DNA of 64,000 nucleotides from Trileptium ribeirensis (taxonomy: Eukaryota > Nematoda > Enoplea > Enoplida > Thoracostomopsidae), in NCBI GenBank assembly GCA_030248225.1, contig JASANE010021187.1, positions 1-64,000 on the forward strand. The letters are read 5' to 3'. The notes under the pieces are model-generated. The model saw nothing but the letters and a program-made list of their open reading frames with translations. It was not told the origin of the DNA and did not search any database. The translations under genes and the position numbers were made by a program. Shown one piece after another: positions 8,661-41,409 of the stretch (positions within the stretch are counted from its first letter, which is position 1; each line of letters opens with the position of its first letter).

Positions 8661-8668
8661 TATATAAA
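8661..8668 (+). promoter_or_regulatory. Possible TATA box of the multi-CSab gene
   Basis: TATATAAA lies 139 bases before the first in-frame ATG at 8800. A start site about 30 bases further on would give a 5' UTR of roughly 110 bases. AT-rich sequence yields such words by chance, so support is only positional. Confidence 0.3.
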
Positions 8669-8799: not shown

Positions 8800-8875
8800 A
8801 TGTACAGTTTAATTAATTTTGCGGCCGGGCTTTTTATGGTATTCCACTGCTTTGCGAGCGCAACTCTTGCTCAAG
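8800..8875 (+). CDS. Exon 1: signal peptide
   Basis: ATG at 8800 is the first in-frame ATG after a stop at 8755-8757. The 25 codons encode a hydrophobic stretch (LINFAAGLFMVFHCFASA) ending in TLA before Gln-Asp, a good signal-peptidase site after residue 24. The donor is CAAG|GTATAT. The last base begins an Asp codon completed by exon 2. Confidence 0.8.
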
Positions 8876-11800
8876 GTATATTTTTTCAGATTTCGTTCTA
8901 TTATAATTTTTGTCAGTCGTACGATCAAAAAATATTCTTTTGTACATGTATGGAAACGATGGCATTGTACAAAGTTCGCATAAAGTTGTGCTAAATTTTT
9001 GCTATTACATTGTCCAAACATCGGTGAAAACGTTTTCCGTAAAAGATGCTTTTGCAAAGAGAAACATTGATCGAGTAAATATAAGTATTATGGCACAGCT
9101 GACGGTCTGTTTATAGGTAGTCGCGCCTGTTTATCAAGATTTATATAAAAATTAATCCTTCCCTAATTGACCTGCTAATGTACATTTCGTACAGCCTTGA
9201 GCAAACTTGCGGCTGAGCTTGACTGAGCCTGGATCCTTTTAGTCCGAGCATCGTACGCTAGCCACTAGCCTATCTGGAGCTGTTGCTCGGTTCATTATAA
9301 ACCTCATATAAAGGAACCTCATAAAGTGGGCGAACAACAACGCACGCTCAAACGCACGTTGCACGGCAAACTCGGTTGGTGCATCGCGCTGAAATGCACA
9401 GTCTGTCAAATATCTCAAGTTAAGAGCTATATAAATGATTAAGATTAAAAATTTGTTAAAGTTACATCTATTGTATTTGATTCAAACGTTGGGCTGAAGA
9501 TTGAAAGTTTAACCATTGAAGCTTTTATTTAGAATATCCTTTTACAACAAAAACTGCAAATTTAAATAGTGACGTGGATGATTAACAAATGCTGTTGCTC
9601 AGCTCCTTAACGAACCTCAAAAGCTAGCGAACAACGCATGCACAAACGTATGCTGCATGACAAACTCGGATAGTAAATAGCGTTGCAATACACGCGCTGA
9701 CAAATGTATCAATTTAATAACTAAAGGCTTAAGTATAAAAGTTCGTAAAACTTAGATCTATTGCCTTTGATTCAGAGAGTTTCTGCCGCCAACTATTGAA
9801 GATCGAAACTTTAACCATTGAAGCTATATATCTAGACTATCAGTTTACTATATACTCTTCATACTTTAATAATAAAACTGAATGGCTAACAAATACTGTG
9901 GAATTTCTGCAAGCTATTTGCAGAACATGTTTTAAAGCGATCACAGCCCAGGATGTAAAAGTTATCGCCGCAGCAGGACTCCGACAACCACCCCGAGGCG
10001 TCCGGCCTCAAGGGACCTCATGTTTGATGCAAAAATTGCATTTATTACATATTTGCGATATGGGGCATTGGAAACGGTTGCTTGTACTGTTCCATTGGGG
10101 ACCTCCGAGACTGTTGCATATACTGTTGTATTGGGTGGAGGGGCTCGGACACCATTGCCATGGCATTAGACCGCAGAGGTGCAAGCCAGCAAATCCGAAA
10201 CATGGAACCTATGACTTTTCGGATGATTCAAGGGTCATACAGTATCACACAACCAACAAGTAATTGTCTTGTCTAAGATAGAATGCCCACTTCTACTGTT
10301 TACTTTAAGGTTAAAAACATATTTTATCACCAAATCTGGAATTTTATATATGTGCAAAGTTTTTTCTTCAGATTGCCCAGACAGCAGCGACCGGATTGAT
10401 GTAGTCTATCGCGATACAAAAATTTGTTCGATCGGTGGTGATGTGGTGAAGAACAATAAATGCGACCGTCACTGTGTTGAAAAAAATACGGCAAGTCGCT
10501 TCGGTCGAGCGATCAACAGTCGATGTGTACGCGACGACTGTGTTTGCACATTTTGTGAGTTTCTTAACGCGTAAATAGCCATAAAATATAGACTAAAGTT
10601 TAGCTACAGCTCTAGCCATAAAATATAGCCTAAAGTTTAGCTACCGCTCTAACCATAAAATATAGCCTAAAGTTTAGCTACAGCTCTAGCCATAAAATAT
10701 AGCCTAAAGTTTAGCTACAGCTCTAGCCATAAAATATAGCCTAAAGTGTAGCTACAGCTCTAGCCATAAAATATAGCCTAAAGTTTAGCTACAGCTCTAG
10801 CCATAAAATATAGCCTAAAGTTTAGCTACAGCTCTAGCCATAAAATATAGCCTAAAGTTTAGCTACAGCTCTAGCCATAAAATATAGCCTAAAGTTTAGC
10901 TACAGCTGTAGCCATAAAATATATATAGCCTAAAGTTTAGGTACAGCTCTAGCCATAAAATATAGCCTAATGTTTAGCTACAGCTCTAGCCATAAAATAT
11001 ATATAGCCAAAAGTTTAGGTACAGCTCTAGCCATAAAATATAGCCTAAAGTTTAGCACAGCTCTAGCCATAAAATATAGCCTAAAGTTTAGCTACAGCTC
11101 TAGCCATAAAATATAGCCTAATGTTTAGCTACAGCTCTAGCCATAAAATATATATAGCCTAAAGTTTAGCTACAGCTCTAGCCATAAAATATAGCCTAAA
11201 GTGTAGCTACAGCTCTAGCCATAAAATATAGCCTAAAGTTTAGCTACAGCTCTAGCCATAAAATATAGCCTAAAGTTTAGCTACAGCTCTAGCCATAAAA
11301 TATAGCCTAAAGTTTAGCTACAGCTCTAGCCATAAAATATAGCCTAAAGTTTAGCTACAGCTGTAGCCATAAAATATATATAGCCTAAAGTTTAGGTACA
11401 GCTCTAGCCATAAAATATAGCCTAAAGTTTAGCTACAGCTCTAGCCATAAAATATATATAGCCAAAAGTTTAGGTACAGCTCTAGCCATAAAATATAGCC
11501 TAAAGTTTAGCACAGCTCTAGCCATAAAATATAGCCTAAAGTTTAGCTACAGCTCTAGCCATAAAATATAGCCTAAAGTTTAGCTACAGCTCTAGCCATA
11601 AAATATAGCCAAAAGTTTAGCTACAGCTCTAGCCATAAAATATAGCCTAAAGTTTAGCTACAGCTCTAGCCATAAAATATAGCCTAAAGTTTAGCTACAG
11701 CTCTAGCCATAAAATATAGCCTAAAGTTTAGCTACAGCTGTAGCCATAAAATATATATAGCCTAAAGTTTAGGTACAGCTCTAGCCATAAAATATAGCCT

Positions 11801-14800
11801 AAAGTTTAGCTACAGCTCTAGCCATCAAATATATATAGCCAAAAGTTTAGGTACAGCTCTAGCCATAAAATATAGCCTAAAGTTTAGCACAGCTCTAGCC
11901 ATAAAATATAGCCTAAAGTTTAGCTACAGCTCTAGCCATAAAATATAGCCTAAAGTTTAGCTACAGCTCTAGCCATAAAATATATATAGCCTAAAGTTTA
12001 GCTACAGCTCTAGCCATAAAATATAGCCAAAAGTTTAGCTACAGCTCTAGCCATAAAATATAGCCTAAAGTTTAGCTACAGCTCTAGCCATAAAATATAG
12101 CCTAAAGTTTAGCTACAGCTCTAGCCACAAAATATATCCTAAAGAATAGCTACAGCTCTAGACTATACGAAGTGGCAAACTCATATACCTTAGTAGCCAG
12201 CCAATATGCCATTATCTTTACATCGAATCAAAATTTCTAGACAAACTTAAATCATTCCAATCATGGACATTGTACGCCTAAACGATTCAAATAAACCCAG
12301 GTAACCGCGGTTAGTGATTGCTTAGTTACGAGATTAATTTGGACCACTATTCCCCGCCTCTGGGCACATCATTTTATCTGCTGTTTGAGACTGGATATTA
12401 TCTATTGTTTGGCAAGAAAGTGCCAACGTTTGTTATTCAGTGAAAAGTATGTATTTCCTTCTTGGCTTGTCTTTGCCACATGCCCTTGTAAAATTTAAAC
12501 GTTGCCTCGTGGACTTTATATATAAAAGACAGACATAATATTGAAATTGCACTGATATATCTGCGAGCTATGTTAAAGCCTTACCGAGTAATTGTGACAG
12601 TGCTGATTCATTGCGTGCGCAGCAGTGTCCCTTATAAGTAAAGGCTAATTAATATCTTATTTCGACCGAATGAAAAGTTTGCAGCATAGCTGCATCCTAG
12701 CAAAGTGAAAAAAAAGACACGCTTAATGTTTGTATGTCTATGTATGTCATGATTCTAGTTTATCAGAAGCCGATCTAACAATTATGTTGCGTTCACGTTA
12801 TAATGTAATCAACGTTTGGAACCTATGTACAGCTCACAGTGACATGCAGACTTCGCTAACAAGATGTAGACACCCCATGTTTTTACGAATTTTAAAAGGT
12901 AAATTTAGCTTGCGGTATTGTCACTTTTGTGCGAATTATACCGTGCCTTTTTCGTACTTTTACTGACTGTGTCTGGCATTATATTGCCAATACGCATATG
13001 GTCTAGGTAAAAATATCGAGATTACTAAACTGCACAACCGACTAATAGACCGCATTCGATGCAGACTGTAATCATTACTGATGACTCGTGCGAAACTGAG
13101 TCAAGTGTGTGCATTATACTATAAACAAAAAATGCAGTAGCTAAAAGAGTGTCACATAACGTCAAAAATTAATTACAGTAAGATTAAACGATGGGGTCGC
13201 GACTACAGCGGGACACAAAATCCAAATAGTGGGGCATTATAACGTGAACGCCTTTAACTATGAAGTACGATAATTACGGTGGGAAACTAATTATGTGAAG
13301 TAAGCTATTATTGTTGATTCTTTTAATTTGGCGGCCAGCCATTGGCCGGTCCGACGAGCTGGTAATACAGCCGGTTGGTTTACCGGCCGGCCAGCCATTG
13401 TTCCAACTTTTATCCACCATTGCGGCCAGCGGACCTCTCTAAGATTAATTTTGCTAAACCTTTTCTATGATGTTTTCTTAAAAATCTAATTTTTTTAACT
13501 TTTGAATCTTCAAATATCAATTAACATGCTGAATATGTCATTCAATAGGAATTATCGCACTACACAGTTACGTGTAAAACCGTTTTCCTGTTTACGTTGG
13601 AGTTTCTATTACATTGTGCAAATGCTTAATTAATCTATGCAAAGCAAATTCGAAAACAACCATACATTTTATAACGAAGCCTATGGCAATCCTAGGTATC
13701 TTGCAGCCTCTAATTCTTACCGAGTAAGCGTAAATTACTGGCTGCTCTACGATAACTTATTTGCATGTTTTGTTGCATATATGTGATAAGACCCAAGACG
13801 TTTTCAGATGGTAAGCGGTTCCAAGCAGTCTTTTTCAAAAGTATCCAATATATCCACAGTGGGACAGTAAAACGCTGTTTAGTACTTAATACATAATTTA
13901 ATTGGGTAAGCACAGATGTAACATTTATTACCGTGAAAGTGTTAAAATTGTTCATGTGTTAGAGGGAGTTATCGTTCGGCATAGCAAACTTTAAATATAA
14001 TGCGCTATTTTAGTAATCGTACTTGAATCAATTTTAACGCCATAATACAACGCTAACATATCTACAACACAACAGAAAACATTAACATTCACAAACTGCA
14101 AACGTCACAGGAATTAGTTAAAACTACTGTTTAAAAGAATATGGGTATAGTATGTTTTTCCATAATAAAGTAAATATGATAGCCACAGCAGCATAGCACA
14201 TGATATTCTGCGCGTGTTCGGTGTACCGTCTGGTCGGAATACAGGTCGGTCGGATTACTGGACAGAATAAGGGCCGGCCGACATTTCGTCGGCCTTGCCC
14301 TCGCGAAAGTCGACTGCGGCCGCCCTCACGCCAGGCCACTGGCTTTTCCGGCCGCTGCCCAATATTAATGGCTGTAGTTCAAACTGCTGCACGTCGAAAT
14401 TTCACGCAAACGAGTGAAATAGTACATGTTTGAGCGAGTACATTGTTTGGCGACCTTTACAGTGGTACCGCCACTGGATAATTTGTGCCTGCACTCCCTA
14501 ATACTTTTCCACTTTTGACTAATTCTACTCTCAGTTTACAACTGCAAGAAAATTTCAACTTTTCAGAACATGGGATCGACCTATTTACGAACCACAGCAA
14601 TGCGCGAACGCCCTTCAATTGAAATGTTCTGACCCGTTCATATGGCTCCAAAGACATGTCACATTTCGTTAAAACTAACTTGTGATATGTAGCATAATGA
14701 GGCGTTTACACTGTAAAAGACCCCAATTGGGAAAGCTTTGTTTCCTCTCCCACAGTCTACACCATACCATCCAGTGGTTAACAGCACATACCTACACTGT

Positions 14801-17800
14801 ATGATAAAATGGATGGCTTGTGAGACACCATCAACGTATCACTATAGTGTCCTAATCTACCTATTGTTTTTACTTACGGTGTCATGGAACCATACGCAAA
14901 GACATTATATAATGAATGTAAATAATACGATGATGTAGGTAACACCATATAACCTTTAAAATTATTTTATGGCTTAGTCTACACCATACTGTTACCGACA
15001 CTACACTACCTATGTATACTATCCTAAAATACTATCAGAAAAATTATGGTGTTCAAGACACCATATATATAGTGGTTGGTGGCAGAGATACCCAGGATAG
15101 ACAAATCTTTCTCAGAGGGGTCCTTTATAACGTAAACGTCGCATGAGGTTTATGTACTCATGTTATGTTAAATTAGTTGTTATTTTACGCTGTTTCAGGT
15201 GATAATGTCGGAGCCGTCGGTGGTGGGGGATGCGGTGAAACTCGAAGCCTCGTCAAACCTCGTTCCGAGTACCGCACCGCAGGACAAGGACCTCGGATCA
15301 TTTCCGGCAAAAGTATTCTTGATACATATTTCTATCTTGTTTTTATCGTATGTAAATATTAAATACTGCGATCGCGTCAGCTTTTTAGTTTTGCAGACAC
15401 AAGCCTTCGAATTTCGCAATAAAGTTACCACAAAATGATGAGCATAGACAACCATGTCTATGAGCAATCATTGAGTTGTTGTATACCAAAAGATTAGCAT
15501 ATGCGATCACGTCTACGAACAATCATTGAGTAGTTGTCTGCATAATGGTTAGAATCGACGAGCATGTCTATGAGCAATCATTGAGTTGTTGTCTGCAAAA
15601 TGGTTAGAATCGACGAGCATGTCTATGAGCAATCATTGAGTAGTGGTCTGCAAAATGATTAGCTTCTACGAGTATATCTGCGAGCAATCATTGTGTTGTT
15701 GTTTGATCAAACGTATACTGTTGGTTGCTGCTTTCGATTCTACATGAGTAACGCATAGAACGGTAGCAAAATGAAAATCTGGATCAATAAACTTATAATT
15801 CCATTTGCTCTTTTAGGTTGTGAATACTTACAAAATATAAGATTAAACCTTACAACCATTTCAGTGTACAAGTTTCACTTCAATATTTACGCCAAACCTG
15901 ATTACAGTTTATCACAACCGGAATCGAGTACTTTGAAGTAAAACTTTTTAATTAATAATTTTTTGCTCTTTATATTATACATCTTTTAATCCGTTGAACT
16001 ATCGTCATTTTCTGTTTTGTTGCAGCTTGCCCGTCACCGATCCACCACGTTTTTAGCCACGATTCGCTATGTGAAAGCTCGGACGATCATTGTGTTCGAC
16101 TTTGTCAGTCGAAATTCGGCGCTGATTTGGTGGACGCTGCATGCGAATCGCCAGAATCTTGCGTTTGTTTGCGATGTAAATAGCATGGTTAATTTTTAAT
16201 ACAAATTCTTTGATACGAGGTCTTTTAAAAACGAAATACTACACTTTGTTAAATTCAATACTGAAGTAAAATTTATAACTCGACTTGCACTGAAATCAAG
16301 CTGAGGACGTAAGCGAAATGCAACTTGTTACATTCGCGAAATATATACAAAGCCTAATTTTTAAGAATAATATTACGTAATCTTAACATATATCGGCGGC
16401 TAGCGTATCCCGAAACATTCAATGTCTCTTCCGGATATCAAAAACTTACATTTCTTGTAAACGTGACCAGATTTATAACTCGACTTGCACTGAAATCAAG
16501 CTGAGGACGTAAGCGAAATGCAACTTGTTACATTCGCGAAATATATACAAAGCCTAATTTTTAAGAATAATATTACGTAATCTTAACATATATCGGCGGC
16601 TAGCGTATCCCGAAACATTTAATGTCTCTTCCAAATATCAAAAACTTACATTTCTTGTAAACGTGACCAGATTTATAACTCGACTTGCACTGAAATCAAG
16701 CTGAGGACGTAAGCGAAATGCAACTTGTTACATTCGTGAAATATATACAAAGCCTAATTTTTAAGAATAATATTACGTAATCTTAACATATATCGGCGGC
16801 TAGCGTATCCCGAAATATTTAATGTCTCTTTCGAAAATCGAAAACTTACATTTCTTGTAAACGTGACCAGATTTATACGATTGAAGGATCAGTTCTGTTG
16901 TTCAACATATTATGCAAAATTTTTGAACAGAAGATTCTTGGTTAAAAGCGGTTTGAAACCCTTATATACAATTATTAGTCATCCGAATTTAATTATACAT
17001 ATGGCTGTATCATAAGTGTCGAAGATGAAAATTGCATAGTCTCAACACTAGGGGCACCAGGCGGGTGCGAGGCTAGAGGAATTTTTTAATTTTCAAGAAC
17101 TAACCTCATGATTTTCCATAATTTCGGTAAAAATCTTAACTATCTTTGCCTATTTTACAAAATTTGTGCTAAAAGTTTCATCAATTTTTGCCGATTCGGT
17201 ACAGTTTTGCCAAATTATTCCCAATTTTTGCCAATTTCCTCTGAAAATTTTGCTCTGGGGGTCCGAGCCTTATAGGGGCAACACCCTTACCACATCGGTA
17301 GCTATGGTCTACATGTCATTTGAGTTTATCTGTCTTTATCATGTGAAACCGCAAATATTTAAACAAAAGCATTGATTGCTTTATGAACTGAAACAATAAA
17401 TTTTCGATTACCAATTTATATCGATTACTACTTGCAAGAAACTCCCATCAAAGCTACACCATAAATGAGGTTTTTGAGTATTATAAGGCACAAATTCAGG
17501 CACTGTCTTTTCTATATTTTCATGGCGAATCAAATGTTGCCCATTTATATCTCAAGAGCTTTCAACCACTGCTGAACTCATCTAAGTCGTGAACCCAAAG
17601 CCACATTTACGTATGGTAAAAGTGTTGGGACATATAGTTGTTCTTACGTGTGCCAAAATTTCAGGTCCCTTTTACAAGCCTCCGGCGTCTTCTTTTCGCC
17701 AACAACGACGAGAAATTATCGACCAGAACTCAAGTGAGTGATATACATTTGAGTATATTTCATAGGGGTGATTTTTGTATAACTTAATTCGCCTTATTCT

Positions 17801-20800
17801 ATATATATATTAATTCTATATTAATACATATTCTATATATATATTAATGTTAGAGGTAGGGTGGAACCTCGCCTCAGTTAATGCACGAGTAAAAAAGATA
17901 ACCCCGCCAACCATCCTATTTTGTAATTTTGTATAAAAATTGTTACGGAACGCTTTTTGGCCCATTGAAATTAGGTGTAAAACTGTTCGCGGCCACACTG
18001 CTTACGATTAAAATCAAGCCATTTTGTGTTTGCGAAAATTCAAGCAAAATTATCTAAATTTTTGAGCACTAAAATTTGTCGAATTTGAATTAAACCGTTT
18101 GGTTCGCGAACACCAAGAGCTTAACTACAGGATCGATTTGCTTGTGACGTCACTTTTGCATTAAATATGTTTGCGAACACTGAATAATCTAAATTTAAAT
18201 GATTAGGTATTAGGGAACCGAATTTCTGCAAAATGAAAACGCGGAAATTGTGTTAGAACACAAGAGATAATTTCGGTCACTTGGTTTTGATTTTGCAAAT
18301 TTATGGTTACCGAAAACCTCAATGAAATTCAACCTATTTTCCGTAACAAGGGTTTGCAATCCGATATCGGTTACTACAAAATAGGATGGCTGGAGGGGTC
18401 ACTTTAAGTTTACTCATGCATACGATGCACATAGTTTTCATCTCCGCGCTGTTCCTGCATTCTCTACAAGCAAGAACAACCGGATGTAACATGATGAGCA
18501 GTGCTCATACACCATGGAATAATCACGTACGATATATTTGGTAGTCTTAGCCCATTTAATCTTTGTAGCTGTGAGACTATCGACTCTGCATACTTAACCA
18601 CTACATCCTGACATTCACATGTTGGTCAATAAAAATGATGAGATAAATGCTTAGCCACATCTGAGTTATGCGTCCATATGATTACAAGCTGCTTCGCGAA
18701 AGAGCAAATGGAAAAATAACATATAAATTATATTACCACATTAAAACGTAGTAAACCCTGAAAATCAATTACAAAAAAAAAACGCAGCGGCTTGTAAAGA
18801 AGAAAGATTAAGTTCCATTAAATGTTTATCAAGTATATATCCGATTTAGATGGTCCATTGTAAATGGAAGCTTCTTTTTTACAGGTTTTACTACAATTCG
18901 TCTCAAACCTGACAGACGTCTAGGAAACGTTGCATTCTGAAACAAACTCGACTGTCTATGTCCAAGAAAATCATTAACCCAAGCTAGAGTCGATGCTAAC
19001 ACAACAAACAAATGTGCTAAATTGAAAGTTGCCTTTTGATGGGACAGATAGAAAGCCGCGTGAAAAGGTATCACCGGAAAAAACGACACCTCACCGTAAA
19101 TCTTCCTAAACCGTTCCCAATAATTGCACACATGCGTCAAATAAGGCTGAAGAGAAGTAATGGCTAACGATTGACACATCGCCTTGGCAAATGTTACAAC
19201 CTCCAATTCAGAACAGCCGACAATATCGTTATACCATACCGAATGATCAAACAAATCTGAAATTACAGACCAAAATTATACCAAATCTATTTATGAAAAT
19301 AAAACTTGATTAGTTACGCGCTGTCGATAAGTAAAGCGAGCGTAAGTGATTGAAACAATCGAATAAGCAATTACAAATATTCAGAATTAATATATGCAAA
19401 TTAAATAGCTAATTTTCTTTCGTTGATCTCCACCAGTAACTCTGCTTATGCCTGCGTTTTACTTCGGGACAAACTACGTTACTGGTGGATCTCCTCAAGA
19501 AAAATCCCAATATAGATAAGCTTAGAAAGAAGACGTACCACCAACAATTTCATTTAGAACACACACCACACAAAAACGTAAGATTATACCCATGGTCATT
19601 AAAAATTGATTTATAGTTTGACACCGAAGCAACAATCCTTGTGCTTTCTTTATAAGAAACCATTTCACAACAAATGTTCTAAAATGCTTGCTAATAAAAA
19701 TGGAAAATAAGGGACTGACGTCCAAAAAGGAGCTATTAATGTCATTTTCCACCCATTGTGGATAAACTTTTGCAAAACCGACAAATCCAATTTAGGTGGC
19801 TTAACAACCCATGCATTTTCAGTTGACCAATCCTGATCAAGTGCATCTAGCCCTAACGCTCCTGGGCATGAAAATTTTGAATAAAGCCTCTTCAGTTTTG
19901 AATTCTGAGTAGAAGCAAATAAATCAATTGTATATGATACAAAAAGTTTGTTTAAAACATCGAAAAATTTGGAATTTATAGCCCAATTGTCAGCATCCTC
20001 ATGTTTAGAAAAATAGTCTGCCGTGGTATTATGTTCCCTAGCAATCCATTTAAATTTAATTTGACATTGATATTCCGCTATAAGACCATATATTTTTAAA
20101 GCTAAAATCTGTAAATCTTCCTTCATGCTACCTCTATATAAAATAAATACTGCTGACCGATTATCCAAACACCACTGAATACGTTGATTTTCCAAATATC
20201 CACGTAAATACCATTAAATATTGCCAAAAGCTCTCTGTACGTTGAATATTTGCAACACTGCCCCGCAGTGAAAAGGAAACGAGAAATATTAGGCGGCCCA
20301 CCGCCAATATAAGCAACAGCAGCCCCTTCTGTCTCACTAGCATTAGAACACACGACTAACGAACAGTCATCCAAAACCACCGTTCTTTTGATGCTCAATA
20401 CCTGCAAATATTTCAACCAAAAAACCAAATCGTTCTTTACCTTAATGGAACAAATAAATGGTTTATCCCATTCCTTTGCCGAGCCAACCTGCAAGTAAAA
20501 ACTACGTGTCCGTACTGGAGAAATATTTCCTAAAACCAAACGATTCGAAATGATACACCCTGCAACACATGACAATAAGCGTGCTGAAACATTCGTCCTA
20601 TTCAGAACATCACGAATTAACTGCAAAACCCCAAATAACTTTCTATCCGGTATAGAAATAGTAGAATCCGAACTATTAATACAACATCCTAAAAATTCTA
20701 TACATTGAATTGGTTCCAAAACAGATTTAGACGTATTAATCACAAAACCTGCTGAAAAAAAAGATCCTGCAAAATTCTTAAAATATGTTGTTCAAGAGTG

Positions 20801-23800
20801 TGAAACGATTCCGCCGTAACAAAACAATCATCGAAAAACCACGCACAAAATATACCCTTCGCTCTCCAAATATTAGTAAAACAACGCATTAACCTGTTAA
20901 ATATATAAAGTGCTGAAGAAATTCCAAACGGCAACACTGTAAACACATATCTTTTACTGGTACTCATATTTTCAATATCCCAAGAAAATCCTAAACATTT
21001 TTGAGATTTAGGATGAATGCCAATGTGGTAATAACCAGATTTTAGATCTAGTTTGGCCATAAACCAGTTAGGTTTAACGTACTGCGCAGCCTTCTGAAAC
21101 CCTTCCAAAGTAAACCTAAACTTGGCAATAAAATTGTTAAGTGCAGAACAGTCAAGAATCAACCTCAATTTATAACTACTATTTACAACCGATAAAGCAT
21201 TAATACAGATAATCGATTCATCCATGCTTACCTCCCTTACAATACCTCTATCAAGTAATTGTCCTAACTCCGTACAAACAAAAATGCTTGGTGCTGCAAC
21301 GCGGATCTATTATTAACTATTACCATTTCCGGTACTGTACCTAAAACTGGAATCGTATATCCAAGTTCAACCAAAATAATAAAACAGGATTTTTATAAAT
21401 GTTGCGCCAAAATTGAATGCATTTACACAAACGACCATTAACTGCATTGACAGCTGTAAGTGCCCTGTGCTTCGAAATTAAATAGACCATCTCACTTTTA
21501 AGCATATCACTGCATTTTGTGACAATTCCATATTATCCAGAAAACAACTACTCCCCGGGAGCAATCGACTCTTGCTGCACATTGTTTTTCGGACAATTGG
21601 AAACGAAGTGACCTCCTTGGCCGCACAAATAGCAGATGTCTCCTTGGTTAGGATTCCGTGTGGGGCCTCCGAAGAAACGAGGGGGTCCGTAGGCCGACGC
21701 ACCCCGGCCGCCACGAAATGACTGATTGTTCAGTTGTGCCTTTAACGTTGGTGCACTGCTACACGCTTGCATCCCATCCACCAAACTTTCTGTGGCAGAT
21801 AGCCCATATTTTTGGGATTTCTGCAACACTGACGCTGCTCTATATCCAAGATTATCTGCCAACAGAATTTGTTTTCCTCTTTTCTCAATACTGTATTTTG
21901 CTTTCTTTAAACACTTAACAAGTTGCGGCATCCGGGAAGCCCTAGATTTTTAATCAGAGGCAATATTGACTGCTTTTCCCAACATTTTGCCCAACTTCCG
22001 CAAAAAATTTAAATGATGATGATTTGATTTAAACTTCAAGTCATATTTTTTGACAACTACCGTTTCTGACATATCCGAAGAATCGGAAGAAATCGTTTGA
22101 GATTTCTTCTTTTTTGGAGCCATATAAATTTATTACAAAAAAAAATTTTTAAATCTTCATAAACAATTATACCAAATCTATCCATGAAAATAAAACTTGA
22201 TTAGTTACGACCTGTCGATAAGTAAAACGGGCGCAATTGATTGAAACAAGCGAATAAGCAATTACAAATTTTCAGAATTAATATATGCAAATTAAATAGC
22301 TAATTTTCTTTCGTTGATCTCCACCAATAACTCCGCCTGGCGTATGCGTAACTATTGTGTATGCGTTTGTATCTGAGTTGGCGTGACTGTGGGAACATGA
22401 TGATGGAGGTTCCTAAGCCTAACCTTAAACTAAGCTCTAAGGAAACCAAGCAATCGAGCTTTTGCAAGTTGGAATAGACAAGACAGCAATCATGGGACAT
22501 ATATACATGCGAAAGTTATGACCGTCATTTCAAACGTGGTTATGACTTGGTCGAGGTATGCTCAATCGCGTTGGGATGCACCTCTAGATTTTTCAAAATG
22601 TGGAATACAGGAACTTTTTTGCCTTAAAAAAGGCGGAGCCTACAGCGATATCACGCAGTATTGGGAAATCAACACTAGGTGCTTGAAGAACCACTGCCCT
22701 GCTGGCAACCGCATTGGCTACTTGCCGGAGCTACCAGGTTGAAGCACTTACATCAGGGTCCCAGGGCCCCGTTCTGCCACGTTTAGTTGTTGGTTGCGCA
22801 ATAACAAAGAGTCATATCGTTTCGTTCAAACAAGCTAACCTGGTTGGCGTTACGTTGTTTGTTACAAAATGCAGGTTAGAATACCACTCGATGAGCTTAA
22901 AAAGGCTAAGGGATAATTGATTTATATAAGTATTACAGCAAAGGCTAAAGTAAGAGACCAAAATATTGAAAATGGAATTATTTTATTACACCTACGCTTC
23001 TGATGCTTTGTTTGGAAGTTCGATAAGTATTAATACATGCTCATAGGAAAAGATGTTATCCCAATGAGACTCAGCACCCGCCTCCATGCCGACAGGCTGA
23101 TCCCGCTCCCCTCGAAGCACGGGCTATACCCATTACCCATGGCTTAGGAACTCGTCGTGATTGTATGACGAATATTTTTAAGCACAATTCACAGCTGCTG
23201 CAAACATTGAGTCTCCGTGTTAATTTTAAGTTTCCACTCATCCGGATACCTTTTTCTTGCGATTTGCGGCCGCAATAAACAATTTCCTGAATTTGTAACA
23301 TTTTAAATTTTAAAATCAATGTATTTTGTAGCGTCTACGAGCAAACGTAGAGCGAATCCTGTATCTATTAAGAATTTTGTTTCATAAGACTAAACTTGAC
23401 ACACATTGACTTACTTTTGACCTCCGCCCTCGGTGATGACTGAAAATACCAGATCCACAATTTAAATGCATGTGTACCCAAAGTATTATTTAATCCAGGA
23501 ACTAGAGAAAGATCTAAAGGGGCAGGCTAAGATGAAACTACGTAATAAAGCCTTTTGATAAGAATTGTTTGGGAAATGCCAGGCAAAAACCCGGGACGCA
23601 AAGTCAAACTCTTTAACAAATGGCATCATCTGCGCATATTCGCTGGGGGTTGCGGAAGACGTCCCAAGAAGCTGATTTCTAACAGAAAAAGACGTGTTCA
23701 TAAGTAATATGTATGCATTGCTTATTTGATTTCACCTGCGCTTCCATCGAATGAACGATTGAACGAATGAATTAGGTTCGTATTGTATCGTCCGTGACAG

Positions 23801-26800
23801 AAAAATTTCAGATGTGGCTGCAAAATTGATAAATTCATATTTCCTTTTCTTAAATTCCTCTAGAATGCATAGAGACCCACCCAAAGGGAAGAGCAAAGAG
23901 CGAAGAAGGTGGCAAATAACATTCACTTCAAATTTGGTTGATATTTTGTGCCTTCTAATAAACATGGCATTGCACAGATTCTTCAGACGTTGATATATAC
24001 CTACCTGCTGATGCTTTACAAAGTGGTCATTTAACTATTATAGCGGCGTCACACGAGAGATACGGTTAAATTGTTGCTTAGATATGAAATTCAGTTATGC
24101 ACTGTTTATTTTCTTAACGTCGATAACCAATAGGAATGTGCATGTTTTTCTATCAAATAATGTATAGTTGGGAACCTTTCTCTGAGACGCGCAAATAAAA
24201 TGCACTATAAGCACATATAACTGCATAAGAAATACTCTACAAATAACGTAATAATTTCGTCAAAAACGTTTTAATATCCACGTAACAATAATTTTGGAGC
24301 CCAACTAATAATTTCATTTTCACAGTTTGTCGCGGCCTGCCAGAAATCACTATCGAGAAATTTCGTCTCAGAAACAAGCCTTGCTCAGCGGAATTATGCT
24401 CAGAGAAATGCAACAAAGGAATTGGTCGAAATCGTAACAAAGAATACCTTCTGGCAGCTACCTACTGCGTTGACAACATGAATTGCGTTTGTGAACGATG
24501 TAAGTGTACAGGTGTTATTTTACTTCGAGAAATGCAACAAAGGCATTGGTCGAAATCGTAACAAAGAGTAAATTCTGGCGGTTACCTACTGCGTTGACAA
24601 CATGAATTGCGTGTGTGAACGATGTAAGTGTACAGGTATTATTTTACTTCGAGAAATGCAACAAAGGCATTGGTCGAAATCGTAACAAAGAGTAACTTCT
24701 GGCAGCTACCTACTTCGTGGACAACATGAATTGCGTGTGTGAACGATGTAAGTGTACAGGTATTATTTTACTTCGAGAAATGCAACAAAGGCATTGGTCG
24801 AAATCGTAACAAAGAGTAACTTATGGCAGCTACCTACTGCGTTGACAACAGGAATTGCGTGTGTGAACGATGTAATGCGGCGTTTACGTTATATAACGAC
24901 CGCCATGTGGAAGATTTGTCCACGTGTGGTCATGACCACACCATGGTGCACGGTACTCGGACGGGCATACAGTGCAGCACAAATCATGGTGTCGCTGACA
25001 CCATATATATTACACTATGGTGTCTTCGACACCCTATATTTGAATACTTATTTAAAAAAAAGGCGGGAAAACTAGCTAACTTAAATTTCAAATGATTTAC
25101 GCTAACTGATTGTAAACCATAAACCATTCCGTTGAAATCTTTGCATAGGAAGTGCGCGGACAGAAGTTAAACCGTATAAACACCATACAACGGAAAAAAC
25201 GTAAAGACATCTTCCCAAAAGACTTTCATGGAAGTTAGCTAGAATTTAATGGTGTCCATGACACCATGTATAAATGTGTAGAAACACTATATAGAATTGC
25301 TTAGAATACAGTCTGGGTATTCTATACACTATATCGTTAACGGTGTTAGGCAGGCTGTACGTGGACAAAACTTCCACATGGCGGGCAACTTATAACGTAA
25401 ACGCCGCATAAGTGTACAGGTATTATTTTACTTCGAGAAATGCAACAAAGGAATTGGTCGAAATCGTAACAAAGAATACCTTCTGACAGCTACCTACTGC
25501 GTTGACAACATGAATTGCGTGTGTGAACGATGTAAGTGCGCAGGTATTATTTTACTTCGAGAAATGCAACAAAGGAATTGGTCGAAATCGTAACAAAGAA
25601 TACCTTCTGGGCAGCTACCTACTGCGTTGACAATATGAATTGCGTGTGTGAACGATGTAAGTGTACAGCTATTATTTTACTTCGAGCATTATGTTCCACA
25701 ATTTAAGCGTTCTTGAAGTCAGATCAGCGCTCGCGGAAACAGTCTAAGGACGTTTCTAACGCGACCAACGTTCTATCTCCATCTTCTATATAACCGAACC
25801 TTCTGAATCCTGTATGGATTTTTGTGATTTTTCTCTGTCATGTAGAGTTGTTAATTTTTAAGGCTTTCCAGTAACTGTCTATTAATCATTCTTGATTCAA
25901 AATCAAATATGTTAAAATTCCAGATGATTTTCGAGACCACAATGCTACCAAGACATATTTTGATCTGATGTACTGCCTATATGATTGTCTACTAGAATAT
26001 GTACAGACCCGAACGCGGTCTCCAACGTATAAATTTACAAGATTCTGCATCTATAAAGTTTTGGGAATTTATAACTCTGTGAATTCTTAGATAATATATC
26101 TAACTTAATTTGTATAAAAGTTCGTATTCATAGAATTTGCGTGTATATTCTTTCTAAAGACATCGCTTGACAACACGTTAAACACCGTTTGCGCCACCAA
26201 TGTTTGCGAGTACTGCGACCTCAAACGACTACCAATACCCCTGTGGTTATCGGCTGGTTTTGTTCAAAACATAGTTGCCAAAATTATATAAATAAATTTC
26301 GGAACAAAAATAATAAAAAAACATTATCTACCGTTTATAATTACTTTGAAACTGAAACGTTTACTTTTAAAGCTCGTTCGAAGAAAACAACTTTAAATTT
26401 GGAATTTATACTACCTTTGGTTTGGCTGAGTTGATTCTTCATAAACTCCATGTTTGATGATAACCTAGGTTTGTGACGATGAGACACTTGTTCAATGCAA
26501 TGACGGTCCTTATTCGCTACATATTCGAAGATTTACCAAAAGATACAATATTTTTGTCGTCTAAGATTACATGTTTTCATTAAAACCGGTGAATATACTA
26601 ACTTGTGGTAACTTCTTATTTTAGGCGATGAAAACGACGTGCTATTTACCAAATCGCAATCAGGTTAGAAATGGAATATTTTTGACCCTAGTGCTTTCAA
26701 AATTGACAACTACTTTCAGAAAGCCAATGATTTTTTCATATTTTTATTACACAAAAATTGACACATGTGAATCAACACTTTCCACAGGTCAACAGGCTTT

Positions 26801-27580
26801 ATTGAAGTAAAGCCGAATTTTCTACAGTTTGTCTGAATATTCGTTTCTTACCTAGTTACTGCGCCGATGGTAAGCCAATTTTATTTCAGTTCCATGGTGC
26901 ATAATAAATATTGTTAATTGCAAATCGCAATCAGGTTAGAAATGGAATATTTTTGACCCTAGTGCTTTCAAAATTGACAACTACTTTCGGAAAGCCAATG
27001 ATTTTTCGTATTTTTATTACACAAAAATTGACACATGTGAATCAACACTTTCCTAGGTCAACAGGCTTTATTGAAGTAAAGCCGAATTTCCTACAGTTTG
27101 TCTGAATATTCGTTTCTTACCCTGTCACTGCGCCGATGGTATGCCAATTTTATTTCAGTTCCATAGTAAATATTGTTAATTTATCTTCAAGCAAACTCAA
27201 GCATTGTTCACAGTTATGATTGACGCTATATTGCATGTCTTGCTTTGATTTTGCACTTCTGAACAAGTAATCTCATAATTTTGCTCAGTTTTAGCTCGAC
27301 TGTTGACCAATATACATAAATTGTGTTCTAAATAAAGGTTTTAGGTCCCTGTGTGAACACTAACATCTCACGATTCCGCAAACCGGCTTGTAGGAACGAT
27401 AAAGCTTGCGAATTGTTGTGCGGTCGTGTTGAAGGCAAAGACGATGTCGTCCGAGCTACGTGTAACAACGGCGAATGTATCTGTGAAATTTGTAAGTTCA
27501 CATCAGCATAAACAAAAATAAGAGTTCACATTGTGCTTTAATGACCCGGAATATTTGATTTGACTTTTTCAGGTATTTAA
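8800..27580 (+). CDS. Secreted protein with four drosomycin-type CSab domains (nine exons)
   Basis: Joined exons 8800-8875, 10372-10554, 15199-15312, 16026-16175, 17665-17733, 24326-24499, 26625-26663, 27345-27491 and 27573-27580 give 960 nt, 319 residues plus stop. All introns are phase 1. Layout: signal peptide 1-24; domain 1, residues 27-87; linker; domain 2, 126-175; linker; domain 3, 199-256; linker; domain 4, 271-318; Ile; stop. Each domain has eight cysteines in the order C1..C2..C3-x3-C4..C5-x4/5-C6-x-C7-x2-C8, the pattern of drosomycin and plant defensins (CxxxC plus CxC mark the CSab fold). Members of this fold are mostly antimicrobial or channel-blocking peptides, usually single-domain. 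A secreted defence role is an inference. Splice sites were read by eye; linker 1 is the least certain exon. Confidence 0.8.
9279..9880. repeat. Diverged direct duplication of about 300 bp in intron 1
   Basis: Two old copies meet near 9590. Shared blocks include GTTGCTC, CGAACAACGCA/AACAACAACGCA, GACAAACTCGG/GGCAAACTCGG, and AACTTTAACCATTGAAGCT with its counterpart at about 9505. No coding role is apparent. Confidence 0.6.
10372..10554 (+). CDS. Exon 2: CSab domain 1
   Basis: Acceptor TTTTTTCTTCAG|AT, donor TTTT|GTGAGT, 183 nt, phase 1-1. Cysteines fall at residues 27, 44, 56, 60, 77, 82, 84 and 87. CDRHC supplies CxxxC and CVCTFC supplies CxCxxC. The C2-C3 loop (11 residues) is longer than in the other three domains. 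The codon of C8 is T|GT, so it is completed only by the next exon. Confidence 0.85.
10576..12161. repeat. 37-bp satellite array (about 42 units) in intron 2
   Basis: The unit carries CTAGCCATAAAATATAGCC then TAAAGTTTAGCTACAGCT. The array begins about 20 bases after the exon 2 donor. Variants with ATATATATAGCC, GGTACAGCT, a missing TA (TTTAGCACAGCT) and CTGTAGCC recur in the same order at about 10.90, 11.36 and 11.74 kb, so multi-unit blocks have been copied. Confidence 0.95.
12162..12784. other. Intron 2 sequence, nothing recognised
   Basis: AT-rich sequence between the 37-bp satellite and the first MITE. No open frame with splice sites of the right phase was found. Confidence 0.35.
12785..13253. 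mobile_element. PIF/Harbinger-like MITE, copy 1
   Basis: Ends are GCGTTCACGTTATAATG and the inverse CATTATAACGTGAACGC, flanked by TTA at 12782-12784 and 13254-13256. Its interior (AACGTTTGGAACCTATGTAC; GGTCGCGACTACAG) matches the copy at 48950. The extreme terminal bases differ between the ends, so the limits may be off by a few bases. Confidence 0.75.
13254..14697. other. Intron 2 sequence with GC-rich islands
   Basis: Islands rich in GGCCGG/GGCCAGCCATTG at about 13330-13435 and 14220-14360 contrast with the AT-rich surroundings. A similar GGCCGGCCCAGCCATT patch occurs at 36675. They may be relics of one dispersed repeat. No exon of the CSab type was found. Confidence 0.35.
14698..15143. 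mobile_element. PIF/Harbinger-like MITE, copy 2
   Basis: Left end GAGGCGTTTACACTGTAAAAG, right end CTTTATAACGTAAACGTCGCA. TAA precedes the left end; TGA follows the right, read as a mutated target duplication. The right end lies 55 bases before the acceptor of linker exon 3. Confidence 0.65.
15199..15312 (+). CDS. Exon 3: glycine-rich linker 1
   Basis: Acceptor GCTGTTTCAG|GT is strong; the donor AAAA|GTATTC is weak. The 114-nt exon supplies GT to finish C8 of domain 1, then residues 88-124 including GAVGGGGCGE, and ends phase 1. It adds one cysteine outside any domain. The local GC content is well above the flanks, which suggests coding. The +1 frame is also open, with an ATG at 15205, so another gene start is possible. 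A later donor (GTAT|GTAAAT, about 15353) would add a hydrophobic tail and is less attractive. Confidence 0.55.
15431..15705. repeat. 55-bp tandem repeat, five units, in intron 3
   Basis: GCAATCATTGAGT or a close variant recurs at 15464, 15519, 15574, 15629 and 15684, an exact 55-base spacing. Units also share GAGCATGTCTATGA. Confidence 0.9.
16026..16175 (+). CDS. Exon 4: CSab domain 2
   Basis: Acceptor TTTTGTTGCAG|CT, donor CGAT|GTAAAT, 150 nt, phase 1-1. Cysteines fall at residues 126, 140, 147, 151, 164, 170, 172 and 175. CVRLC gives CxxxC and CVCLRC gives CxCxxC. The C8 codon is again split after its T. Joined straight to exon 2, its first codon would be TCT (Ser), losing C8 of domain 1; this supports exon 3 lying between them. 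Confidence 0.85.
16271..16870. repeat. 200-bp tandem repeat, three units, in intron 4
   Basis: Units begin ATTTATAACTCGACTTGCAC at 16271, 16471 and 16671 and are nearly identical, so the amplification is recent. The array ends at GTGACCAGATTTATA near 16880. No coding potential was seen. Confidence 0.95.
17050..17285. repeat. Dispersed A-rich repeat with GC-rich borders, copy 2
   Basis: Words such as CCAATTTTTGCCAATTT and AGTTTTGCCAAATT (reverse of the core at 0.25 kb) lie between GGCACCAGGCGGGTG and CTGGGGGTCCGAGCC. It sits in intron 4, 380 bases before exon 5. Confidence 0.4.
17665..17733 (+). CDS. Exon 5: linker 2 with a furin-like site
   Basis: Acceptor CCAAAATTTCAG|GT, donor TCAA|GTGAGT, 69 nt, phase 1-1. 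It completes C8 of domain 2 and adds residues 176-197, rich in Pro, Ser and Arg. Residues 186-190 read RQQRR, an R-x-x-R proprotein-convertase type site. Without this exon, exon 6 would turn C8 of domain 2 into Phe, which is good indirect support for it. Confidence 0.7.
18829..19254 (-). pseudogene. Tyrosine recombinase, N-terminal part only
   Basis: A 141-codon frame with the alpha-helical core-binding region and the typical bridge GLRRIVVKPVKKKLPFT. It ends at a stop just before the catalytic R..HxxR..Y domain would start, and that domain was not found downstream. TGTAATTTCAG directly precedes the frame on this strand and could be a splice acceptor joining it to an upstream exon. Confidence 0.75.
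19274..19445. repeat. 172-bp direct repeat of the DIRS-like element, copy before the recombinase
   Basis: About 90% identical to 22165-22336 by eye. TCCACCAGTAAC at its far end pairs with GTTACTGGTGGA at 19478-19489, a 12-base inverted repeat just after the RNase H region. Confidence 0.85.
19665..21300 (-). pseudogene. DIRS-like reverse transcriptase and RNase H, frameshifted
   Basis: The first part (20740-21300) holds the RT fold: LRLILDCSALN, MAKLDLKSGYYHI, FTVLPFGISSA and FFDD as the active site. At about 20751-20760 a run of A's shifts the frame; the second part continues from INTSKSVLEPIQ with a thumb and RNase H (STYREL, plus the metal-binding region reading SNAS where Asp is usual). 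Another shift near 20200 leads to WCLDNRSAV and the DLFAS..N segment ending in TLIAPFW. At least two frameshifts and a D-to-N change show it is inactive. Confidence 0.85.
21548..22123 (-). pseudogene. DIRS-like gag with CCHC zinc knuckle, one nonsense codon
   Basis: ATG at 22123 (MAPKKKKSQ) opens a 191-codon frame interrupted by a single in-frame TAA at 21950-21952. A glycine/arginine-rich stretch precedes CYLCGQGGHFVSNC, a CX2CX4HX4C knuckle. The 172-bp repeat ends 42 bases upstream. Confidence 0.8.
22165..22336. repeat. 172-bp direct repeat of the DIRS-like element, copy before gag
   Basis: Partner of 19274-19445. It probably marks the 5' end of the element on the minus strand; sequence beyond 22340 no longer matches the other copy. 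Confidence 0.8.
22337..24325. other. 3' part of intron 5, no exon recognised
   Basis: Minus-strand open frames at 23071-23319, 23486-23701 and 23732-23965 do not join into a known protein. CCTAAGCCTAACCTTAAAC at about 22412 resembles degenerate GCCTAA (TTAGGC) repeats. No phase-1 exon with a CSab pattern was seen. Confidence 0.35.
24326..24499 (+). CDS. Exon 6: CSab domain 3
   Basis: Acceptor CATTTTCACAG|TT, donor CGAT|GTAAGT, 174 nt, phase 1-1. Cysteines fall at residues 199, 217, 222, 226, 245, 251, 253 and 256. CSEKC gives CxxxC and CVCERC gives CxCxxC. The C4-C5 loop (18 residues, with GIGRNRNKE) is the longest and most basic of the four. The 3' half of this exon with its donor is tandemly repeated in the following intron. 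Confidence 0.85.
24521..25684 (+). repeat. Five tandem copies of the 3' half of CSab exon 6 with its splice donor
   Basis: TACTTCGAGAAATGCAAC recurs at 24521, 24645, 24769, 25429 and 25553 (period 124 bp once the MITE in the third copy is removed). Each unit joins intron sequence after the donor to the exon from C4 onward, through CVCERC, to a fresh GTAAGT-type donor. Copies 1-3 carry TAA after RNRNKE; copy 4 is open; copy 5 has an extra base. They lack the first half of the domain and an in-frame phase-1 acceptor, so they are probably not spliced in. Confidence 0.9.
24876..25408. mobile_element. PIF/Harbinger-like MITE, copy 3, with clean target duplication
   Basis: Ends TGCGGCGTTTACGTTATA and TATAACGTAAACGCCGCA are exact inverted repeats. 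TAA at 24873-24875 and 25409-25411 is the target duplication. Neighbouring exon-6 copies show the empty site GATG-TAA-GTG, which proves insertion. TAA/TTA 3-bp duplications are typical of PIF/Harbinger. At 533 bp with no transposase it is non-autonomous. Confidence 0.9.
26625..26663 (+). CDS. Exon 7: linker 3
   Basis: Acceptor CTTCTTATTTTAG|GC, donor TCAG|GTTAGA, 39 nt, phase 1-1. It completes C8 of domain 3 with GC and adds DENDVLFTKSQS. It is optional on frame grounds: exon 6 joined straight to exon 8 also gives Cys, so it could be skipped or spurious. Support is its sound splice sites and agreement with the domain-linker alternation. Its last 13 bases and donor are duplicated 271 bp downstream. 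Confidence 0.6.
26651..27181. repeat. 271-bp tandem duplication across the exon 7 donor
   Basis: AAATCGCAATCAGGTTAGAA starts both copies, at 26651 and 26922. Copy 2 has small deletions. The duplicated donor has no matching acceptor before it. Confidence 0.9.
27345..27491 (+). CDS. Exon 8: CSab domain 4
   Basis: Acceptor AAAGGTTTTAG|GT, donor ATTT|GTAAGT, 147 nt, phase 1-1. Cysteines fall at residues 271, 284, 290, 294, 308, 313, 315 and 318. CELLC gives CxxxC and CICEIC gives CxCxxC. GEC before the CxC matches the GxC of the defensin gamma-core. The C8 codon is again split as T|GT. Confidence 0.85.
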
Positions 27581-27655
27581 TTATCCCTTTGTCAAAACGT
27601 ATAGGTAATGTGTCCTAAATTGCAACAAAATGCAATAAAACCATATTTGAACTCC
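27573..27655 (+). CDS. Exon 9: terminal micro-exon (Cys-Ile-stop) and 3' UTR
   Basis: Acceptor TTTGACTTTTTCAG|GT lies only 81 bases after the exon 8 donor. The coding part is GT ATT TAA (27573-27580): it completes C8 of domain 4, adds Ile and stops. AATAAA follows 54 bases later, so the listed end (27655) is an estimated cleavage point. GT-ATC-TAA after an acceptor at about 30.37 kb would code the same but lies far past the polyadenylation signal. Confidence 0.7.
27634..27639 (+). terminator. Polyadenylation signal AATAAA of the multi-CSab gene
   Basis: AATAAA lies 54 bases after the TAA at 27578-27580, a normal distance for a short 3' UTR. It supports ending the gene at exon 9. Confidence 0.6.
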
Positions 27656-30297: not shown

Positions 30298-30499
30298 AAA
30301 AGTTGAGAGCATCTAACATGTCTGACGGGGACATGTTTTATACGGATTGCTAAAAAATATTTTTGATTTGTTTTAGGTATCTAATATCATTTATGAATTC
30401 TGATTGACGAAAAATCACTAATGTGTATCATCAACATTCACTTTTACTAAATTATGGCCAATGGACTATAAAAAATATCGAAAATTGCAGATGGTCGAA

Positions 30500-31494
30500 G
30501 CTGAAAAGTCTGGGCAATAGTGTATTTTTATAAACTTAAACGCATGCTATCTATAAAGGTTCGTTCATCGAGTGCTGCTCCAACGTTATAGGCATAGTCT
30601 GTCGAATAACGGACCATGCAAAGGCTATTTGCATAATGCCAGCTGAAAAGTCTGAGCAATAGTGTATTTTTATAAACTTAAACGCATGCTATCTATAAAG
30701 GTTCGTTCATCGAGTGCTGCTCCAACGTTATAGGCATAGTCTGTCGAATAACGGACCATGCAAAGGCTATTTGCATAATGCCAGCTGAAAAGTCTGAGCA
30801 ATAGTGTATTTTTATAAACTTAAACGCATGCTATCTATAAAGGTTCGTTCATCGAGTGCTGCTCCAACGTTATAGGCATAGTCTGTCGAATAACGGACCA
30901 TGCAAAGGCTATTTGCATAATGCCAGCTGAAAAGTCTGAGCAATAGTGTATTTTTATAAACACTTAAACGCATGCTATCTATAAAGGTTCGTTCATCGAG
31001 TGCTGCTCCAACGTTATAGGCATAGTCTGTCGAATAACGGACCATGCAAAGGCTATTTGCATAATGCCAGCTGAAAAGTCTGAGCAATAGTGTATTTTTA
31101 TAAACTTAAACGCATGCTATCTATAAAGGTTCGTTCATCGAGTGCTGCTCCAACGTTATAGGCATAGTCTGTCGAATAACGGACCATGCAAAGGCTATTT
31201 GCATAATGCCAGCTGAAAAGTCTGAGCAATAGTGTATTTTTATAAACTTAAACGCATGCTATCTATAAAGGTTCGTTCATCGAGTGCTGCTCCAACGTTA
31301 TAGGCATAGTCTGTCGAATAACGGACCATGCAAAGGCTATTTGCATAATGCCAGCTGAAAAGTCTGAGCAATAGTGTATTTTTATAAACTTGAACGCATG
31401 CTATCTATAAAGGTTCGTTCATCGAGTGACGCTCCAACGTTATAGGCATAGTCTGTCGAATAACGGACCATGCAAAGGCTATTTGCATAATGCC
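30500..31494. repeat. 142-bp tandem repeat, seven units
   Basis: AGCTGAAAAGTCTG starts units at 30500, 30641, 30783, 30925, 31069, 31211 and 31353. Units are nearly identical apart from a CA insertion in the fourth. The minus-strand open frame 30812-31087 is only the repeat read through. Confidence 0.95.
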
Positions 31495-39685: not shown

Positions 39686-40077
39686 CTAAACCCAAGAACC
39701 GCCATATGCTTCTAGGACCTTGTTTGCGCCATAATACACAGGTCTGATGAAAAATTTGTCCAGAACATTTTGCTTAATTTGCCCGTAGCGACATAATTCC
39801 ATTGCCCGATGCAAGTCCCGCGCTTCCCACACTTCAGCACGAGTTTTCGGTATCCAAGGATCTGGAAGATCATCAGTGTCACCCCTGAAATAAGTTAAAC
39901 GGCGTCGTCCGTACCGGGGGAAAAACACTGGCGCCGGGCGCAAAAATTCGTAGTTGAGATACGGATTCGTCAACGTCCGGTAGCGCGGCTTTTGTATATA
40001 CTCATAGTCGCTCACGACGTTGGATTGACGTGTACTACCTGGATGATAGCTTAAAAGCCACGGTTGGTAAAGATTCC
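39686..40077 (-). CDS. Gene B exon 2
   Basis: 392 nt from acceptor TTCTAG|GG to stop. It carries the conserved part shared with paralogue A; identity is highest around PYFRGD/TYFRGD and ELCRYG. Confidence 0.8.
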
Positions 40078-41165
40078 CTAGAACAAAAATTACGTCAACT
40101 GAAATTTGCCAAAAATGCAATCTGACATATAATAAATGTCAAAATAATCAGGCAAAATAAATACAGTCGTATTTTGTCGTATCTTACACGGGGACGTTCG
40201 TCTATAAATCTACGACCATTTGAAATATACATAGTGACAGTCAAATCAACTTGAAGTCACATATTCTGCTTTAGAGTTAGGCGAATAATTTCGCTTATCT
40301 CTGTGACTGTGGACTTACTAAATACCTCGTTGCTATATTGACTTTAAATGCTCTATATAATTTAGCACCAAATATTTTATCCCTGTCATAAAATCGCTGG
40401 TAACTAAGTAACTCTGTTTCAGTGGTACGTTCGCCAACACTTCGACCAATCTATTGTGTTTTCGGAAAGTATAATTTTGTGTCATAATGATTTGAACAAA
40501 GAACGGTATGACACAGCCTAAAACCAAAAATTAGGTTATTTTGCCAAGCATTAAACCAAACCCCCGTCATATCCTAAAAATTATAGAGCCAATATCTTGT
40601 CAAGAAATTCTATCGTAGCGGTCTGTTGCATTAATAACTTTACATTATAACAGATGATTTTGCAAATAACACTAGAGTGTTTCTAATACTGCTTAGCAAC
40701 TTTGGTATTACAGAGGTGAGACTGCATGGGGCGCTCCCTGGGTGTACTGCAAGGTTTAGGGAAATAATTTATTTCGCCAAGATAATTTTATCGCCTACCG
40801 CGTCTTGAGTTAAGTACCTTGTTTATGCTGCTCCACCATAACTCGGTGGAACGTGGCATATTTATATAGATTTATATGCTACAACAATCCAAACATATGT
40901 GCAACACCCTCTAATTATGTGTGTAAACTCCTGAATCCTTACCTGTGTATATATCACCCATTCGTAATACTGGTACCGGCCGCGGAATGGCAGAGAGAGC
41001 GATACTCCTGGCCCGCGTGTAAGCTCGTTGGCGAGCTTTGTTGCCAGACACTTCGGTCGGGGGCCGATAGCGGGAAAACGAGCGTGAGCGTCGAATAGGC
41101 GTAAAACCCTCGATGTAAGTGTGATGTCGGTCCAAATTGTCCATTGATAATGTCATGTCACTCAT
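39686..41165 (-). CDS. Gene B: two-exon protein of 204 residues, family not recognised
   Basis: Exon 1 is 41165-40943 and exon 2 is 40077-39686 on the minus strand. Donor ACAG|GTAAGG and acceptor TTTTTGTTCTAG|GG join in phase 1 and keep the frame (615 nt). There is no signal peptide or membrane segment. The first 70 residues are basic and serine-rich (PIRRSRSFSRYRPP). The rest is rich in Tyr, Pro and Arg: YFRGDTDDLPDPW, EARDLHRAMELCRYGQI, RPVYYGANKVLEAYGG. Conservation with paralogue A shows the protein is real and marks ELCRYGxI and YFRGDxxDxPDPW as key segments. I do not recognise the family and assign no function. Confidence 0.75.
40943..41165 (-). CDS. Gene B exon 1
   Basis: ATG at 41165, 74 codons plus one base. 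About 60 bases upstream on this strand is TTATTTCAG, a good acceptor that could take a 5' UTR exon or a spliced leader. An 90-codon frame upstream (41158-41430) overlaps this ATG and ends in it. Confidence 0.7.
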
Positions 41166-41409
41166 GATGATAGTAATGCAAAACTATATCGATAATTAAA
41201 TTGTACAAATTTGGATAATCACTGAAATAAGTCTTCATTGTCGAACTAGGCCACTCGTTTATCTTAAGACCATCAGCTCTCATAATGAAAATTTGTACAA
41301 TTTTTGCGCAATTTCTGTCAAATTTTAGATGCTCCAGATGCAGGCACTCAGTAATTCCGTCTGAGATTGTGGTTACCCTAGCGAATTCTGTCAAACGTAG
41401 CATTCTTGC

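Follow-up and report, generated by a model that had tools for sequence, protein, structure and literature searches.

A predicted secreted protein of four CSαβ-like domains joined by conserved linkers in the nematode Trileptium ribeirensis

We analyzed a 64,000-nucleotide stretch of DNA from the nematode Trileptium ribeirensis (GenBank assembly GCA_030248225.1, contig JASANE010021187.1, positions 1 to 64,000 of the forward strand; hereafter the window). It holds a gene of 18.8 kb at positions 8800-27580 (+), whose nine exons when spliced encode a 319-residue protein with a signal peptide, four domains of eight cysteines each and three linkers. The domains are predicted, with varying confidence, to adopt a fold of the cysteine-stabilized αβ (CSαβ) type. 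CSαβ peptides are mostly known as single small domains, and the fold often serves in defense. We give an even chance to the view that the product is an intact, multivalent secreted binder in which four CSαβ-like domains are carried on conserved linkers, with a plausible role in defense.

Nine exons encode alternating domains and linkers

An earlier note on this DNA had proposed that domain and linker exons alternate between a signal-peptide exon and a stop exon, with phase 1 junctions throughout. Reading the exons with the boundaries it proposed bears out this model: all eight introns are GT...AG, all eight junctions are in phase 1, and the nine exons run in frame over 319 residues without an internal stop or frame break. 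Exon 1 (8800-8875, as all following exons on the + strand) holds the start codon and the signal peptide, 25 residues and one base of a leader that is hydrophobic by reading. It is followed by domain D1 (exon 2, 10372-10554), the 38-residue linker L1 (exon 3, 15199-15312), D2 (exon 4, 16026-16175), the 23-residue L2 (exon 5, 17665-17733), D3 (exon 6, 24326-24499), the 13-residue L3 (exon 7, 26625-26663) and D4 (exon 8, 27345-27491). Exon 9 (27573-27580) supplies the last residue and the stop codon TAA at 27578-27580. Each domain exon is symmetrical (1-1) and begins at the first cysteine or one residue ahead of it, while its 3' edge splits the codon of the eighth. Matches to consensus place a TATA-like site at 8661-8667 (+), 139 bases upstream of the start codon, and a candidate poly(A) signal, AATAAA, at 27634-27639 (+).

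The cysteine order C1..C2..CxxxC..C..CxCxxC claimed for the four domains agrees with the spacings in every one of them: 16-11-3-16-4-1-2 in D1, 13-6-3-12-5-1-2 in D2, 17-4-3-18-5-1-2 in D3 and 12-5-3-13-4-1-2 in D4. D1 thus has a longer loop, of 11 residues, between its second and third cysteines.

A whole-length relative suggests that the joined protein is constrained

We searched a collection of 5.8 billion proteins and found, among 570 candidates, one match to the spliced protein. This relative (P0001, 321 residues, E 6.5e-119) is 60% identical over 99% of the length, linkers included, with 191 of the 319 residues identical and the domains and linkers in the same order. The two contigs that encode P0001 do not exceed 1,366 nt. 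Because the window gene spans 18.8 kb, P0001 is most likely a transcript; an intronless gene would be the alternative. A profile of both whole proteins found nothing beyond P0001 among 5,197 candidates, and one built on D2-L3 identified no relative among 20. Pattern scans of contigs from prokaryote genomes and from viruses produced 55 and 82 matches, none of them confirmed as a relative, as is expected for an animal-type gene.

Outside the cysteines, identity to P0001 amounts to 30/53 residues in D1, 23/42 in D2, 30/50 in D3 and 21/41 in D4 (104/186 for the domains together). In the linkers it is 24/37 in L1, 14/23 in L2 and 10/13 in L3 (48/73 together). The signal peptide, at 5/24, is the least conserved part. 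By Fisher's test both the linkers (p 1.5e-4) and the domains (p 0.0018) are better kept than the signal peptide, with no difference between the two (p 0.16). Since the linkers are kept about as well as the domains and better than the signal peptide, the comparison suggests that the joined protein as such is constrained, although figures from two sequences serve as pointers and not as selection tests.

Both mature proteins have 33 cysteines, 32 of which align; the one that does not, the second of D4, is displaced by a single residue between them. The odd 33rd cysteine sits in L1, within a GGGxCGET motif, and is conserved in P0001. A thioester-like reading of its CGET was dropped, as the usual motif requires Gln. 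At the same place in L2, both proteins have RxQR and then R or K (RQQRR in the window protein, RSQRK in P0001). Each domain holds its position in both proteins, though the domains differ from one another.

The exons are not a chance pattern and very probably not a dead gene

To gauge how rare such exons are, we collected AG...GTRA candidate exons of 120-210 bases in 1-1 phase and matched them to a cysteine pattern modeled on D1-D4. The + strand gave 882 candidates and five matches at four places, which are the D1-D4 exons (D1 with two acceptors); as the pattern was taken from these very domains, this control measures rarity and not discovery. None of the 820 candidates on the - strand matched, nor did any of 10,333 from ten shuffles of the sequence in two-base blocks. 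When the window was searched with a profile built from the eight domains of both proteins, the four domain exons and five incomplete D3 copies alone scored above threshold; the next row had an E-value of 0.045.

The idea that the nine exons arose by chance, or that the gene is dead, draws on introns rich in repeats, among them the broken partial D3 copies. Against it stand the whole-length relative at 60% identity, the empty result from the shuffled candidates and nine exons free of stops and frame breaks, and we regard its probability as negligible. Judged from the sequence comparison, P0001 excludes a chance origin of the exons, and because a relative of the whole protein exists we take the gene model to be real and intact.

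The domains are diverged and predicted to share a CSαβ-like fold

Pairs of domains share 11-17 identical residues over 52-64 columns, D2 and D4 being 34% identical. We scored each domain with a profile from which it had been left out and compared the score with those of 200 cysteine-preserving shuffles. The real score was reached by none of the shuffles of D2 or D3, by five of D4 and by nine of D1, and the held-out E-values were 0.0061 (D2), 0.0018 (D3), 0.028 (D4) and 4.8 (D1). D1 also scored below unrelated pieces of the window. As their held-out scores beat all 200 shuffles, D2 and D3 share residues beyond the cysteines by this measure; for D4 the signal is marginal, and for D1 the measure gives no support.

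An order of CxxxC and a later CxC (C..CxxxC..C..CxC) is present in all four window domains and all four P0001 domains, as a matter of cysteine order only. The AlphaFold model of D2 shows a β-α-β-β order with a predicted local distance difference test score (pLDDT) of 87.8. A structure search with this fold returned CSαβ peptides as all of its eight best solved matches, by a thin margin, with the plant defensins PhD1 and Psd1 among the matches; drosomycin was absent (all within the best 50 of 1000 aligned chains). P0001 was modeled from trimmed alignment pieces that excluded the D2 and L3 rows; in this model the β-α-β-β order appears in D1 and D4 with low confidence, and D3 is without the first strand. 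Sequence searches of solved structures found no CSαβ entry, with three weak rows for the whole protein and one for the domain profile. Structure prediction of each domain, proposed by the earlier note as a check, thus gives a good prediction of a CSαβ-like fold for D2, a weak one for D1 and D4 and an incomplete one for D3.

The domains have a drosomycin-like cysteine order but lack other drosomycin features

The earlier note had called the protein drosomycin-type, and the label is supported in part: the domains agree with drosomycin and plant defensins in the order C..C..CxxxC..C..CxC..C and in the predicted CSαβ-like fold, and with drosomycin in the CxCxxC ending. Other features set them apart. 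A GXC γ-core is typical of drosomycin-type and plant defensins. The GXC before the fifth cysteine is absent from all eight domains of the window protein and P0001, where S, A or T stands two residues before that cysteine. Drosomycin has 8 residues between C1 and C2 and 9 between C4 and C5, and ends in CxCxxC. Against these lengths the domain loops are longer, at 11-17 and 12-18 residues.

No Pfam family matches the whole window protein or the eight domains. The weak rows were SLR1-BP (E 0.19, the best), Dicty_CTDC (0.19) and Toxin_2 (1.3), and PF00304 gave no row up to E 10 with the four window domains and the whole protein, or with the eight domains. NCBIfam had no family for either whole protein. 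The search for CSαβ and defensin families that had been suggested thus gives no matching family.

Published work bears on the label as well. Cremycins, offered earlier as nematode examples of the drosomycin type, contain six cysteines, and whether they deserve the label has been contested in the literature: beyond Drosophila and plants, a single nematode sequence was found to fit the drosomycin spacing, and cremycins do not (PMC5116183). Later work describes drosomycin-type genes in further nematodes (PMC10506718) and gives the distribution of the type as arthropods, nematodes, tardigrades and plants (PMC9751787). For these reasons we class the protein by its CSαβ fold, with a cysteine order that resembles that of drosomycin, and not as a drosomycin.

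Known multi-domain systems differ from the window gene

Termicin and cobatoxin are peptides with six cysteines. Nasonin-2 and nasonin-6 of Nasonia vitripennis, which have been related to them, carry 4-5 defensin units, and nasonin-6 has one exon per unit and phase 1 introns (PMC2853521). A multi-domain secreted form, described by the earlier note as unusual, is fairly so called but not unique. The nasonins share with the window gene the tandem CSαβ units and, in nasonin-6, the exon arrangement. They differ in that separate linker exons are undescribed in the available parts of that paper, where the proteins are also described as lacking processing signals; the window gene has conserved linker exons and its protein a conserved RxxR.

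The plant defensin MtDef5 likewise joins CSαβ domains by a linker in one secreted chain. However, it has two domains that are 84% alike, a 7-residue linker and a net charge of +16 (PMC5700942). The window protein has four domains that have diverged, three linkers 38, 23 and 13 residues long and a net charge of +4. In the nematode bi-domain drosomycin-type peptides of Gu et al. (2018), a drosomycin-type scaffold also bears an addition, but the second domain is a disulfide-linked insert within one scaffold (PMC9751787) and not a tandem CSαβ domain. Secreted cysteine-rich repeat proteins (SCREPs), with about sixty thousand candidates (PMC6262176), have tandem disulfide-rich domains and would include the window protein, given a signal peptide identified by reading; they are an architectural class and not a family, and the main text of that paper is without the words defensin, intron and exon. 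Tandem knottin toxins are known as well (PMC9950431). In the literature covered, mostly papers available without subscription and seen in part, we found no four-domain, eight-cysteine CSαβ protein with linker exons. The window gene is set apart from the known multi-domain CSαβ genes by its conserved linker exons, diverged domains, odd 33rd cysteine and RxxR.

Proposed multivalent binding and its alternatives

The mature protein, of about 294 residues, would be secreted as four CSαβ-like domains joined by three linkers. The domains may act as one multivalent unit, each offering a different binding face, with partners that could be microbial, host or prey surfaces, or enzymes. Dimerization through the odd cysteine of L1 is possible. 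We favor one multivalent molecule over a string of equal antimicrobial peptides because the linkers are conserved and the diverged domains keep a fixed order. The mature proteins have net charges of +4 (window) and +5 (P0001), and D2 is acidic in both (net -5 in the window protein, where D3 is +4). By its computed charge, then, the protein is not a typical cationic lytic peptide, and the low net charge with an acidic D2 also argues against simple membrane lysis. It is rather improbable, in our estimate, that the gene belongs to an old four-headed CSαβ family with selected linkers on exons of their own, in which the L1 cysteine produces an eight-headed covalent dimer serving as a modular recognition protein and not as a membrane-lytic one.

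The conserved basic motif raises a different possibility, that of a polyprotein precursor in which a furin-like protease cuts the RxxR of L2, and perhaps other places, to release double-domain halves or single peptides. RQQRR and RSQRK at the same place in the two proteins speak for it. However, neither a dibasic nor an RxxR site is apparent on reading L1 and L3, so that four single peptides would go unexplained, the linkers are conserved about as well as the domains, and the nasonins are described as having no processing signals (PMC2853521); we consider this precursor unlikely. We are similarly doubtful of a multi-defensin antimicrobial acting on microbial membranes or walls, its activity raised by multivalency, an effect that has been argued for MtDef5 and proposed for nasonins. 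The predicted CSαβ-like fold and the drosomycin-like cysteine order are consistent with it, and MtDef5 with both domains joined exceeds its separate domains in activity (PMC5700942), but the strong positive charge and alike domains of MtDef5 are not matched by a protein of +4 with one domain at -5 and diverged domains, and GXC is missing throughout. A venom or secretory-gland protein, working as a multivalent ion-channel ligand or a multi-headed enzyme inhibitor, appears to us very improbable.

With its phase 1 units, diverged domains and kept linkers, the four-domain form suggests that the CSαβ fold can serve as an exchangeable extracellular module. A multivalent binder of this kind, named by none of the Pfam or NCBIfam families searched, would offer a natural test of whether selection keeps multivalency or domain-specific binding.

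Repeats and other elements in the window

The five D3 copies are 3' halves of the exon with its donor region, in a 124-bp tandem array at 24527-24875 and 25435-25660 (+). An in-frame stop interrupts three of the five, a fourth has a frameshift and the remaining one is open. Because of these defects, and because none of the five is preceded by an AG within 12 bases, we dropped them as alternative exons. Inserted in this array is an element of ~535 bp (24875-25409) with 51-nt inverted ends that are 88% complementary; motifs like those of the element recur, by reading, at about 14680-15145. A 269-bp duplication at 26650-27164 (+) includes the end of the L3 exon and puts a second copy of the L3 donor at 26934. 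A 1.6-kb array of about 42 copies of a 37-bp unit (10576-12161) starts about 20 bases past the D1 exon.

The intron between L2 and D3 holds retroelement pieces at 18829-22150 (-), with a reverse transcriptase match (PF00078, 7.3e-17) and, by reading, a CCHC-type piece and a DIRS-like look. Direct repeats of 172 bp, 93% alike, lie in the same intron at 19274 and 22165. Beyond the gene, two paralogous open reading frames on the - strand (33444-33899 and 39689-40138) have no Pfam family, and the former no significant solved relative; they share, by reading, YFRGDxxDxPDPW...ELCRYGxI. Arrays of a 142-bp unit (30499-31494, 99% matches) and a 143-bp unit (41409-43266, 98% matches) are also present, and towards the end of the window 61893-62315 (-) looks integrase-like and 63360-63590 (-) reverse-transcriptase-like, both by reading.
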